Assembly (NCBI GenBank): GCA_001802865.1
Contig: MHAF01000103.1
Span: 1 to 35,269, forward strand
Length of the DNA: 35,269 nucleotides
Direction: 5' to 3'
From: Ignavibacteria bacterium RBG_16_34_14
GTDB lineage: Bacteria > Bacteroidota > Ignavibacteria > Ignavibacteriales > Ignavibacteriaceae
A program made the position numbers and the translations under genes. A model generated the notes under the pieces. That model was not told where the DNA came from and did no database searches. It saw nothing but the letters and a program-made list of their open reading frames with translations. Shown piece by piece: positions 6,498-19,091 of this stretch; position 1 is the stretch's first letter, and each line of letters begins with the position of its first letter.

Positions 6498-8411
6498 ATG
6501 AAATTTTTTCTTTTTTTGGTTCTTTTTGGTTGTTCGGACCTTTTTCCCCAGGAAATTGATACACTCAGCCAGAGGCGGACCACAGATACAATTAAGACCT
6601 TAACCGATTCCTCATTTGTAATTTCCCGTGATACTCTTTCTTCCGATACCACCGGAATTTTTTCTATACAGGTTGATACTCTCTATCCTTTGTATCAGAA
6701 TCCATTTTATAATGGAAGTTTTTTTGTAAACAGAAGAACGATTGATATGCTTGATTACAGGTATAGCGGGAATTTATTCTCTCCTACCGGCTTCAGTTTT
6801 CTTAAAGATAAAGGGATGATTGGACAACCCAATAAACTTGTTCTTTATGGAAATAGTTTTGGAGCGATAGGTTTCTTTTCTGATGGGATTCGTTTTAATA
6901 ACAGATATACAAATTTACTTGATCTTAATATTATCCAGAGTGAGCTTATAGATTCAATTGAAATTCTTCCTTTACCAAGAGGATTTCTTTATGGAGCTGA
7001 TAGTTATATAGCATCTGTAAATTTTATAGAAAAAGATTTTATAACACCTGCCCCCTATACAAGGATAAAATATTATGAAGGTCCTGAAGGTGAAGCATTC
7101 GTAGATGGAATTTTTAATGTTTCGTTCCTTAATAAGTTTAATCTTTCTTTTGATATTACCAACAGAAATTTTGATGGTATTTATACAAACAGCGATTTCA
7201 GCATCTGGCAGGCAAATGTAAAGCTGAAATATTTTCTCTCTAATTCAATAAATCTAATCGGCTCTTATTATTTAGTAAGTTCTGAACTCGGATTTTTTGG
7301 CGGAGTTGATGCAGACAGTATTTCTAAAATTACAAATGATATAAACAGTGTTCTTTATGATCCTTTACAGGCTCCGGTTGTCAATCCAGCTTTAAGACAA
7401 GAAGTGAACCGGGATAAATTTAAAATAAGAACACTTGGAAAATTTGGAAGCTTCTATACTGATTTAAACTTCTACTATCATTCCGAAATAGAAAAGTATT
7501 CAGGAATTCCTTCAAAGGATGAAATCAAAAATTATATTTGGGGTGCTTTATTAAGACAATCTTATTCCCCAACATTTTTAAGTATTGAACTTAATGGAGT
7601 TTTTGAGAAGAGAGAATTGAACTATTATTTTATTGATACTGTTTCTGGTTTTCAAACAGAAAAGATTGAATACAATGTTTTATCAGTCTCACCGGTTTTT
7701 TCATTGTATTTGCTGGATAGCATTTTTATTCCTTCATTTTTTTATAAACTAACCAACTATTCAAATCTTAATAACTCTTTACATGGTTTTGGAGGAGATG
7801 TTACAGTTACAGTTTTTAATTTCCTGAGTTTGTACGGAGGAATAAGCAGGTTTGATTTTAGTAACGATATGAGAATAAATGTTTATGAGGTTGGTGCAAA
7901 GATTCAATATGACAAATTCATTTCTGATGTTAAATTTTATAGGAGTGAGATTAATCATTCTGTATTCATCCCATTACAAAATAGTTTTACAAGCATTTTA
8001 TTACCAACATTACAGGGTAATCTTTCCGGTTTTGTAGCAAGCATAAATTTTGATTTTTGGAAAATTGGTTTGGAGGGAAAATTTAATTATAACTCATTTC
8101 AGAAAAATCAAAACCCAACTGATTCAGAAATAAAAATGTATGTTAATGGAGGGATTTATTATAAGGATATTCTATTTAATCATAACCTTGATTTAAAAAC
8201 CGGTTTTGATCTTAAGTATTATGATTTTGAATCAGAAAATTTTAAATCTGCTTACCAGATTGATTTTACTGTTGCAGGAATAATTCAGCAGGCTGCAATA
8301 GTTTATTTCTCATGGGAAAATCTTTTTGATGAGCAATATTTTATTGTTCCCTATTATCCTATGAGAGAAAGAGGAATTAGATTTGGAATAGCATGGGAGC
8401 TGTTTAATTGA
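6498..8411 (+). CDS. TonB-dependent-receptor-like outer-membrane beta-barrel protein
   Basis: This protein has 637 residues with a short signal sequence (residues 1-18, MKFFLFLVLFGCSDLFPQ). A Ser/Thr/Asp-rich linker runs to about residue 60. A plug-like segment at about 65-180 includes 'KLVLYGNSFGAIGFFSDGIRFNN' spread around residues 113-135 and 'SIEILPLPRGFLYGADSYIASVNFI', as in TonB receptor plugs. The remainder alternates hydrophobic and polar residues, as expected for antiparallel beta-strands. It ends ENLFDEQYFIVPYYPMRERG followed by a final strand closing in phenylalanine and asparagine, a common ending for TonB-dependent receptors. I see no clear TonB box, and the barrel is shorter than classical receptors (700-1000 residues), so it could be a TonB-independent porin-like relative. 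The ligand is unknown. It is a single gene, divergent from HU and convergent with the response regulator. Confidence 0.75.
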   Translation: MKFFLFLVLFGCSDLFPQEIDTLSQRRTTDTIKTLTDSSFVISRDTLSSDTTGIFSIQVDTLYPLYQNPFYNGSFFVNRRTIDMLDYRYSGNLFSPTGFSFLKDKGMIGQPNKLVLYGNSFGAIGFFSDGIRFNNRYTNLLDLNIIQSELIDSIEILPLPRGFLYGADSYIASVNFIEKDFITPAPYTRIKYYEGPEGEAFVDGIFNVSFLNKFNLSFDITNRNFDGIYTNSDFSIWQANVKLKYFLSNSINLIGSYYLVSSELGFFGGVDADSISKITNDINSVLYDPLQAPVVNPALRQEVNRDKFKIRTLGKFGSFYTDLNFYYHSEIEKYSGIPSKDEIKNYIWGALLRQSYSPTFLSIELNGVFEKRELNYYFIDTVSGFQTEKIEYNVLSVSPVFSLYLLDSIFIPSFFYKLTNYSNLNNSLHGFGGDVTVTVFNFLSLYGGISRFDFSNDMRINVYEVGAKIQYDKFISDVKFYRSEINHSVFIPLQNSFTSILLPTLQGNLSGFVASINFDFWKIGLEGKFNYNSFQKNQNPTDSEIKMYVNGGIYYKDILFNHNLDLKTGFDLKYYDFESENFKSAYQIDFTVAGIIQQAAIVYFSWENLFDEQYFIVPYYPMRERGIRFGIAWELFN

Positions 8412-13321: not shown

Positions 13322-14461
13322 ATGAAAATTAAATATTACCTTCTTTCTTTTCTAATGTTAATCTTTTTTTCAGAAATTCATTCACTGCCAAGATTCAGTT
13401 TAAGAGGAGGTGGTGGGGACTGTTTAGGATGCCATGTTAATCCAACCGGCGGTAATATGAGGAATAAAAGCGGATGGGGTTTTGGGAAAAATGTTCTTCC
13501 TATGATTACTCCTGAGGATGATTTCCAGATGAGCAATAAGATTGGTGATAATATTCAATTAGGACTTGACTTGAGGGGACAAACTCTATTAAAAACGATT
13601 CCTTCGACAGATGGGAATAAATATAAAATAGATTTCCAGAGAATGACCGGAAGCATTTATACTAATATTGATCTTTCAGAAAAGATAAATGTGTTTACAC
13701 GGTATGATTTCATACAGCAAATATGGGAAGCTTATGGAGTTGCACATATTCTACCAAATAACAGCTATGTAAAAGGAGGGGCGTTCCAGCCAAATTACGG
13801 GATAAGGCTTGATGACCATACTGCTTACATAAGAGGAGGAGATCTCGACCTTCTTTTTAGTACAAATGTTAAAACAGGATTACTTTACGATCCCCGTTAT
13901 ATTGAGACTGGTGTAGAATTAGGATTTTATTTTAGTGATTTTGCTTTTTTAACCGCAAGTGTTGGTAACCCGCGCAGTTCATTACTTTTCGAGTACGATC
14001 CTGTTTATACAGCTAATTTAAAAATACAACCTGAGATTGGAGAAAATAAAGCTTTATTCTTTGGTGGTTCAATTGCTGCTTTCAGGGGCTTTATACCTAT
14101 TATAGGTCGTGTTTTTCCGGAAGTAAAAATGTACGGAGGTTATGTTGGATTTGGCATTGGTGATTTTACAATTATGGGAGAATATGATATGGCGAATGAT
14201 TATCTCTATAAAGATTCTGCATCAACAGCTTTAATGGTTGAGGTTGCATATAGAATAATCAAAGGTCTCGAAGCAGTTGTGAGGTTGGATAGATTTGATC
14301 CTAACTCTGATATTGATAAAGATGAATATACCAGAGTTATAATCGGTTTTGAAATTTTCCCATACAGCTTTATAGAAATAAAACCGCAATACAGGATACA
14401 AATGGAAGATCCAAGTATAGATAACGATTCTGCTCTGATTCAGTTTCATATCTGGTATTAA
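13322..14461 (+). CDS. Outer-membrane beta-barrel protein with one c-type haem motif
   Basis: This 379-residue protein has a Sec signal peptide (about residues 1-21, ending EIHS). Directly after it comes DCLGCHVNPTGG, where Cys34, Cys37 and His38 form a CXXCH haem c attachment motif within an otherwise glycine-rich lead. The segment MRNKSGWGFGKN follows. From about residue 75 the sequence alternates in the manner of transmembrane beta-strands (LGLDLRGQTLL, NVFTRYDFIQQIW, KMYGGYVGFGIGDF). It ends in the strand IQFHIW plus tyrosine, a typical outer-membrane insertion signal. The combination suggests an outer-membrane barrel carrying a single haem near the periplasmic face, possibly in electron transfer. 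The haem reading rests on the motif alone. It is a single gene with GAGG upstream of the ATG and a terminator-like hairpin downstream. I do not recognise a named family. Confidence 0.75.
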   Translation: MKIKYYLLSFLMLIFFSEIHSLPRFSLRGGGGDCLGCHVNPTGGNMRNKSGWGFGKNVLPMITPEDDFQMSNKIGDNIQLGLDLRGQTLLKTIPSTDGNKYKIDFQRMTGSIYTNIDLSEKINVFTRYDFIQQIWEAYGVAHILPNNSYVKGGAFQPNYGIRLDDHTAYIRGGDLDLLFSTNVKTGLLYDPRYIETGVELGFYFSDFAFLTASVGNPRSSLLFEYDPVYTANLKIQPEIGENKALFFGGSIAAFRGFIPIIGRVFPEVKMYGGYVGFGIGDFTIMGEYDMANDYLYKDSASTALMVEVAYRIIKGLEAVVRLDRFDPNSDIDKDEYTRVIIGFEIFPYSFIEIKPQYRIQMEDPSIDNDSALIQFHIWY

Positions 14462-14475
14462 GTTTTTTTATTTAA

Positions 14476-14496
14476 GTGAGGCTCATTAAGCCTCAC
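14476..14496 (+). terminator. Terminator-like hairpin after the CXXCH barrel gene
   Basis: GTGAGGCT and AGCCTCAC pair perfectly over 8 bp around a 5-base loop, starting 14 bases after the stop codon. The following sequence ATTTCTTAATT is only moderately T-rich, so termination strength is uncertain. Confidence 0.6.
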
Positions 14497-17822: not shown

Positions 17823-19091
17823 ATGGATTTGAAAATGTTTGATAAGATTTTATTGTTAGTGTGCGCTTTAAATTTCTTTATTTTTTCCCAATCCAAAATC
17901 ATTATCTACATGGATCTTCAGCAAACCGATCATCTTAAAGCATATGGCATAACTTTCCACGCTCTAATAGATGGAGTAAAAGCGGATTGGCTTCTCAATT
18001 ACAGGGGTGGTTCTTTTATGATTGATCACTCAGATAAAATTGCTACTGAATGCAGGATTGAGGGAGTTGCTTTCGATATTATTTCATTTTCAGAATCTGT
18101 TAGTATTTATGCTGAAGTGCAGAGTGAAGATAATAATATGGATGTTATTAGGTTAGAGAAGGCTCCGAAGATAGCTGTTTATGTTCCTCCTGGATTCCAG
18201 CCATGGGATGATGCTGTTACACTTGCACTTGAATATGCAAAAGTTCCTTATGATAAAATATGGAATGATGAAATCCTTCGCGGCGATCTTCAAAATTATG
18301 ACTGGCTTCACCTGCATCACGAGGATTTTACAGGACAGTATGGAAAGTTTTTTGCAAGTTTTGCAAATGCACAATGGTATATTGATCAACAGATTCAATA
18401 TGAAAATAATGCAAAGAAGAATGGATTTAAAAAAGTTTCCAAGATGATGGAAATTGTTTCACAGACAATTAAAAGTTACATAGCGCAAGGAGGATTTCTT
18501 TTTGCGATGTGTTCAGCCACCGATTCTTATGATATTTCTCTTGCAGCAGAAAATGTAGATATATGTGCTTCAATGTATGATGGCGATGCGGCTGATCCAA
18601 ATGCTCAGGAAAAACTTGATTTCTCAAAGTCGCTTGCATTTGAAAGCTTTAAGCTTGAGATGAATCCTTATGTTTATGAATACAGTGATATAGATATTCA
18701 GCCAATTGAAATAGGCAATTTCGAAAATGATTATTTCACACTTTTTGAATTCTCTGCAAAATATGATCCTGTACCAACGATGCTTACACAAGACCATGCA
18801 AATGTTATCCGCGGATTTATGGGACAAACAACAATGTTCAGGGGAGAACTGATTAAAAAATCAGTCACTAATCTTGCCGAAAGACAGGGTACAAATCAGG
18901 TCAGATACATTCATGGTAATTTCGGAAGGGGAACGTTTACTTTTTATGGGGGACACGACCCCGAAGATTACCAGCATGCAGTAGGAGATCCGCCAACAGA
19001 TCTTAACCTGTATAAAAACTCTCCCGGCTACCGTTTAATTCTTAACAACATCCTTTTCCCTGCAGCAACAAAGAAAAAACAAAAAACTTAA
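17823..19091 (+). CDS. Uncharacterised conserved secreted protein
   Basis: The protein has 422 residues from the ATG at 17823; a second in-frame ATG at 17835 gives an equally good signal peptide (MFDKILLLVCALNFFIFSQS). The mature part opens KIIIYMDLQQTDHLKAYG and contains DWLLNYRGGSFM. A central block LHLHHEDFTGQYG is followed by GGFLFAMCSATDSYDISLA, which looks like a nucleophile-elbow turn of a class I amidotransferase or flavodoxin-like fold. The C-terminus has GNFGRGTFTFYGGHDPEDY. From memory, close relatives in Bacteroidetes are often labelled asparagine synthetase B. I see neither the N-terminal catalytic cysteine nor the ATP-pyrophosphatase motif of that enzyme, so I do not use the name. 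The function is unknown. The gene follows clpX by 81 bp behind a palindromic repeat and is probably separate. Confidence 0.75.
   Translation: MDLKMFDKILLLVCALNFFIFSQSKIIIYMDLQQTDHLKAYGITFHALIDGVKADWLLNYRGGSFMIDHSDKIATECRIEGVAFDIISFSESVSIYAEVQSEDNNMDVIRLEKAPKIAVYVPPGFQPWDDAVTLALEYAKVPYDKIWNDEILRGDLQNYDWLHLHHEDFTGQYGKFFASFANAQWYIDQQIQYENNAKKNGFKKVSKMMEIVSQTIKSYIAQGGFLFAMCSATDSYDISLAAENVDICASMYDGDAADPNAQEKLDFSKSLAFESFKLEMNPYVYEYSDIDIQPIEIGNFENDYFTLFEFSAKYDPVPTMLTQDHANVIRGFMGQTTMFRGELIKKSVTNLAERQGTNQVRYIHGNFGRGTFTFYGGHDPEDYQHAVGDPPTDLNLYKNSPGYRLILNNILFPAATKKKQKT

Follow-up and report, generated by a model that had tools for sequence, protein, structure and literature searches.

The fused barrel gene and its setting

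The stretch of DNA analysed here (the window) comprises 35,269 nucleotides of a contig from Ignavibacteria bacterium RBG_16_34_14. Positions 13322..14461 of its forward strand hold an open reading frame that runs from an ATG at 13322 to a TAA at 14461 and encodes 379 amino acids, which translation and comparison with homologues suggest to be a fused monohaem cytochrome-porin. The protein consists of a signal peptide, followed by LPRFSLRGGGGDCLGCHVNPTGGNMRNKSGWGFGKN and then by a barrel that terminates in QFHIWY. Its N-terminus is hydrophobic, with a putative cleavage site after residue 21 (FFSEIHS, then LPRF). The signal peptide (residues 1-21; 13322..13384, +) was assigned from this hydrophobic start, with cleavage placed by the family consensus, between A and LPRF. 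It is followed by a putative haem module (residues 22-58; 13385..13495, +) of the form LPRF..C34xxC37H38..NPTGG..R47N..G51, recognized by its invariant residues, a structural model and kinship in hhalign comparisons. The haem-attachment motif itself, CLGCH (residues 34-38; 13421..13435, +), is kept in all homologues read. It begins at residue 34, i.e., residue 13 of the predicted mature protein, in agreement with an earlier note on this DNA that had placed it about 12 residues past the cleavage site. The protein has no cysteines other than C34 and C37.

Among the ORFs of the window, the fused barrel protein is the sole case of an exported N-terminal CxxCH; of the remaining two CxxCH motifs, one is in a DnaG-type primase and the other in a Zn-ribbon protein. 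On the 5′ side the gene is separated by 187 bp from dxr, which runs in the opposite direction, and on the 3′ side lie genes for a TPR protein and clpX. A consensus scan found a terminator-like hairpin of 8 pairs directly after the stop codon (14476..14496, +), which suggests a single-gene transcript. No redox genes adjoin the fused barrel gene in the window or in the genus relative G002. Elsewhere in the window, a 637-amino acid protein (6498-8411, +) has a Porin_10 match at its C-terminus and a TonB-receptor plug match. A 422-amino acid exported protein with no Pfam match (17823-19091, +) occupies a position beside clpX that is conserved in several relatives.

Barrel structure

An AlphaFold model built from 62 sequences (pLDDT 86.7, pTM 0.85) folds residues 78-378 (13553..14455, +) into a porin barrel of 16 strands. 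The last strand ends beside the C-terminal QFHIWY, which bears out the barrel with a C-terminal aromatic strand described in the earlier note. According to Foldseek, the best matches among solved structures are the phosphate-selective porins OprP (2o4v) and OprO (4rjx/4rjw), which share only 12-13% identity with the window protein and differ from it in having no haem module. The window protein has no Pfam match to the family of these porins, Porin_O_P (PF07396), which one of 21 members of the window protein's family matched (E 5e-4). Searches of Pfam, NCBIfam and PDB sequences with the window protein returned nothing useful, and a profile search of PDB sequences likewise gave no significant match. 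An aGPT-Pplase3 match (E 0.12) was dismissed as noise.

In the model, CxxCH is flanked by helices at residues 23-28 and 49-58. The haem module was disordered when 28 close sequences were supplied to AlphaFold and mostly resolved with the 62 diverse ones. The haem loop (residues 31-50) is of low confidence (about 54) in a model that contains no haem, and such a value might be expected of a haem loop modelled in this way. Strand 5 is followed by a 39-residue loop with a GxRxDDHT signature (residues 156-194; 13787..13903, +), defined from model strands and loop lengths, that occupies the position of porin loop L3.

Distribution and conservation of the family

A single-sequence search found full-length homologues with 45-87% identity in 34 of the 58 nearest genomes, including its own. 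When 297 genomes of the phylum were searched with a profile, 62 gave matches, and almost all of these fall within the class Ignavibacteria. One near-copy was found by single-sequence search of genome contigs, and plasmid records searched with the window protein gave no match. The gene tree requires four changes of genome family label (minimum 3; shuffled mean 29), and this close agreement suggests mostly vertical inheritance.

CxxCH is invariant in the 30 nearest homologues, which were aligned without selection for the motif, and is present in every distant homologue with an N-terminal module that was read, down to ~20% identity. Because the motif is invariant, its occurrence by chance is excluded. 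Residues invariant in a 62-sequence alignment reaching 19% identity include P23, C34, C37, H38, G43, G51 and G81, along with R85, M108, G153, G160, H166, G248 and G342; R47, D164, D165 and H376 each exceed 90%. The earlier note had proposed that conservation of both cysteines and the histidine be checked, and all three are thus absolutely conserved. Homologues lacking the cysteines, which it regarded as evidence against haem binding, do not occur among those that have the N-terminal module. Thirteen weak, barrel-only matches without CxxCH lack this module altogether, and all three that were tested resemble Porin_O_P, so we rejected haem loss as an explanation for them. Such haemless barrels may be the source of the family's barrel.

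The note had also raised the question of a second axial ligand. M108 (strand 2; 13643..13645, +) is present in 41/41 sequences of a second set and in 62/62 of the alignment, but strand alternation suggests that its side chain points outward, and we disfavour it as the distal haem ligand. H166 (13817..13819, +) is likewise conserved in 41/41 and is a candidate for the distal ligand or for a metal site with D164/D165. H376 (14447..14449, +) is conserved in 39/41, with Lys in its place in L066 and Tyr in L067. It lies on the last strand, on the lumen side near the periplasmic end, and hydrophobic alternation also turns D83, R85, E199, E352 and R358 toward the lumen. Judged by conservation and predicted facing, H166 and H376 are the best candidates, and one or the other is probably the distal haem ligand.

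Relation to Cyc2 and other haem protein families

Cyc2 is a fused cytochrome-porin and Fe(II) oxidase in which one polypeptide carries one haem (Keffer et al. 2021, PMC8406198). The closest structures to its barrel are OprO/OprP, and outer-membrane Cyc2 is positive in a haem stain (PMC8406198). The window protein shares with Cyc2 a signal peptide, a single CxxCH at the mature N-terminus, a one-polypeptide construction and a 16-strand barrel with an OprO/OprP-like fold, and its 379 residues exceed the 365-residue floor for Cyc2 (PMC8406198). However, Cyc2 is defined by AXPXFAR[Q/K][T/Y] and PXL around CXXCH (Keffer et al., PMC8406198), and the window protein has neither. Upstream of CXXCH it reads SLPRFSLRG (family consensus ALPRFALR), which keeps the P, the F and the spacing of the Cyc2 motif but not FAR[Q/K][T/Y], and NPTGG stands in place of PXL four residues after CXXCH. 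The family has signatures of its own that are unlike Cyc2, namely NP[TSA]GG..RN..G, the DDHT loop and the C-terminal His.

To obtain Cyc2 seeds, a made-up Cyc2-like consensus peptide was used to retrieve real Cyc2 genes from plasmid records; six Cyc2-like genes were found there, each with a c-type cytochrome gene among its near neighbours. With the signal peptide excluded, hhalign gave 95.8% between the haem modules of the window family and canonical Cyc2, with a pairwise E of 8e-9 that is not database-corrected. In a control comparison, Cyc2 and the temptin-like module had little in common beyond CxxCH (46%). The barrels of the window family and canonical Cyc2 scored 0.1%, and canonical Cyc2 reached only 2% against the barrel of a Cyc2-motif group of this order. 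By profile comparison, the haem modules of Cyc2 and the window family are related. We conclude that the window family is a distinct family that is Cyc2-like by architecture and is not to be filed as Cyc2.

The order has further fused monohaem barrels. One family of them, which carries the Cyc2 motif (AIPAFARKY..CKTCH..FPAL), is widespread, and the window's own genome encodes a second fused monohaem barrel (GIPSFSRKYQTSCSTCH) at L146:92-1336 (+; G000:C51). Its product has 415 amino acids and a Cyc2-like N-terminus (GIPSFSRKYQTSCSTCHYAFPML). No correlation was found between the window-family gene and the Cyc2-motif family. Canonical Cyc2 genes (ARQTN..CSACH..PELTPFGRLFKLNGYT) are present in Ignavibacteria at L151:3638-5026 (-), L152 and L153. 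All three adjoin small cytochrome c genes, and L151 carries a window-family member on the same contig. The earlier note treated a one-piece, one-haem barrel as unusual, a premise that is outdated given Cyc2 (PMC8406198) and the Cyc2-motif genes of this same genome. That idea is not new; the novelty lies in a family with a distinct signature and candidate ligand residues and, in one lineage, in a haem partner sorted by the type 9 secretion system (T9SS).

Comparisons were also made with multihaem conduits and with other monohaem proteins. The role proposed here is like that of MtrAB and Pcc/OmbB, in which electrons cross the outer membrane through a barrel, but those systems use a separate multihaem cytochrome, whereas the window protein would carry one haem on the same chain. 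A cluster of separate barrel and multihaem genes, which characterizes porin-cytochrome (Mtr/Pcc) systems, is absent from the window. Temptin_C-type monohaem proteins (PF24784) have CxxCHxxPxGGxxRNxxG in common with the window protein (hhalign 98.2% over 22 columns, no signal peptide). In contrast to the window protein, which is a barrel, they are soluble, surface-sorted and barrel-less; it has no Pfam match to Temptin_C, and only the short haem motif is common to both. The Temptin_C family is named for an animal pheromone protein.

Gene neighbours in relatives

The earlier note observed that the gene is isolated and that no gene for a multihaem cytochrome lies close to it. This holds for the window but not for the family, where monohaem, 5-6-haem and Rieske neighbours occur elsewhere. 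Within 200 bp on the same strand, a CxxCH gene accompanies 15/63 family genes compared with 21/546 other genes of the same loci (OR 7.8, P 3e-7, shared ancestry uncorrected). Same-strand neighbours in other families include PSCyt1-like cytochromes (L105, L179, L181, L186), Rieske proteins (L158, L160, L166, L171, L172, L154) and YceI proteins (L158, L163), with 5-6-haem lipoproteins directly beside the barrel gene in L154 and L172. At L154:1368-8055, a three-gene unit encoding a pentahaem lipoprotein, the fused monohaem barrel and a Rieske-like lipoprotein is duplicated in tandem. The genes rseP and dxr lie near the fused barrel gene in 9/21 loci.

The suggestion that relatives might occur beside cytochrome genes is also borne out in one sister family (f2), in several genomes of which a monohaem gene lies directly upstream on the same strand at 8-150 bp (once 318 bp). 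Its product is a secreted protein of 220-242 amino acids with CxNCHxxPxGGGxRNxFG, a DSDGDGF segment and a T9SS sorting domain, and is Temptin_C by Pfam (E about 1e-15). A search of the window's genome (79% complete) revealed no such upstream gene. No description of a T9SS-sorted haem partner was found in a literature search of limited coverage. Temptin_C-type matches occur in 22/58 genomes (E < 1e-3), including a few to the porin's own haem module. Temptin_C-type (PF24784) CxxCH proteins lie at L095:10438-11100 (-), L096:10731-11399 (-), L155:333-1286 (-) and L156:997-2628 (+), and in L101 and L102; most have a T9SS sorting domain and some exceed 500 amino acids.

Two further kinds of neighbour were noted. 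Near the fused barrel gene, some secreted proteins of PSCyt1-like or comparable type have Cx4CH (e.g., SCVNEGCH, TCAFSQCH) instead of CxxCH (L183:4904-5620, -; L185:5088-5804, -; L160:3879-4439, +; L175:8072-8464, -); this motif is possibly an unusual haem-attachment site. In several families a membrane protein of ~100 amino acids with conserved YTKD/YSKD..FGT..FGLLP is encoded 14-25 bp downstream of the barrel (L163:6111-6440, +; L168:4546-4857, -; L171:3716-4009, +; L175:5499-5789, -); the L168 copy, when tested, had no Pfam match.

CcsA/CcmF-type haem-attachment genes are present in 58/58 genomes, the window's own included. A long-match COX1 terminal oxidase (E below 1e-140) is present in 34/34 genomes with the fused barrel gene and absent from 6/24 without it (P 0.003, uncorrected, shared ancestry ignored), which hints at a link to aerobic respiration.

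Discussion

The reading that we favour, with a probability of roughly 0.7, is a fused monohaem cytochrome-porin that acts in the manner of Cyc2 and conducts electrons across the outer membrane. The invariance of CxxCH, the OprP/OprO-like barrel, the kinship of the haem module with that of Cyc2, the CcsA/CcmF genes, the redox neighbours and COX1 all speak for it. Against it stand the lack of an adjacent redox gene in the window and the genus, canonical Cyc2 barrels whose sequences do not align with this one and the absence of both Cyc2 motifs. The low-confidence, haem-free loop of the model also counts against it, as do neighbour and oxidase statistics that ignore shared ancestry. What the analysis shows directly is the anatomy of the sequence, the invariance of its key residues, the predicted fold, the likeness of the haem module to that of Cyc2 and the redox genes beside relatives; that haem is bound, how the protein is oriented, which residue ligates the haem, which way electrons flow and what donates them is what we infer for such a conduit. 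The invariant motif and the barrel model uphold the earlier picture of a single chain in which an outer-membrane barrel probably holds a single haem c at its mouth, and the protein very probably carries haem.

In the mechanism that we propose, the apoprotein would be exported and a CcsA-type system would attach haem covalently to C34/C37 in the periplasm. The OprP-like barrel would insert into the outer membrane, leaving the short N-terminal haem module at its periplasmic mouth, and the conserved long extracellular loop with its DDH signature would, with charged lumen residues, lead inward to the haem. Coordination would probably be completed by H166 or H376. Single electrons would then be exchanged between an external partner, either small or bound to the surface, and a carrier in the periplasm that ultimately connects with the respiratory chain.

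A closer equivalence, in which the protein is a true Cyc2 in function, i.e., a dedicated oxidase that passes electrons from dissolved Fe(II) to the aerobic chain, is possible but rather unlikely. The shared architecture, barrel fold and haem-module kinship would fit such a role, as would the COX1 association and the FeGenie iron-oxidation genes of Ignavibacteriales, reported in a survey of sites dominated by cluster 3 Cyc2 (PMC8478452). However, neither AXPXFAR[Q/K][T/Y] nor PXL is present, distinct Cyc2-motif genes, uncorrelated with the window-family gene, are present in the order and in this genome, and the redox neighbours are varied in a manner atypical of Cyc2.

Alternatively, the protein could be an OprP/OprO-type porin selective for a solute, with a haem that has a structural or sensory role and conducts no electrons. 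Its OprP/OprO-like barrel, the haemless Porin_O_P-type genes that match part of the C-terminal barrel, the conserved charged residues lining the lumen and the isolation of the gene in the window are consistent with that role. We nevertheless consider it improbable, as the C, C and H are absolutely conserved, redox gene neighbours recur and the haem module is akin to that of Cyc2. That CxxCH serves another metal or a disulphide is very improbable: Cys-x-x-Cys can form disulphides, the loop is loose in the apo model and the support for haem is a consensus, but the histidine varies no more than the cysteines do, exported CxxCH together with haem-attachment genes normally means haem c, and Cyc2, with a related module, has been haem-stained in outer membranes (PMC8406198).

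Beyond the conduit itself, we can speculate, quite tentatively, on a class-wide outer-membrane redox family whose L3 histidine would extend into the barrel and there either ligate the haem or hold a substrate metal situated over it. The barrel of one lineage would pair with a monohaem protein that is exported to the surface by the T9SS and has the same haem motif, giving a route of two single-haem units with no multihaem wire. This broader proposal is doubtful as a whole.

Conclusions

Cyc2 motifs are today's means of recognizing monohaem cytochrome-porins. Since this family lacks them, a gene found in 34/58 of the nearest genomes has likely escaped notice or been taken, with no evidence, for a sign of iron oxidation. 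With H166 and M108 invariant and H376 nearly so, the way in which a one-haem porin holds its haem becomes testable by three point mutants. The T9SS-sorted haem partner, in turn, suggests a route to placing a redox protein on the cell surface beside the conduit.
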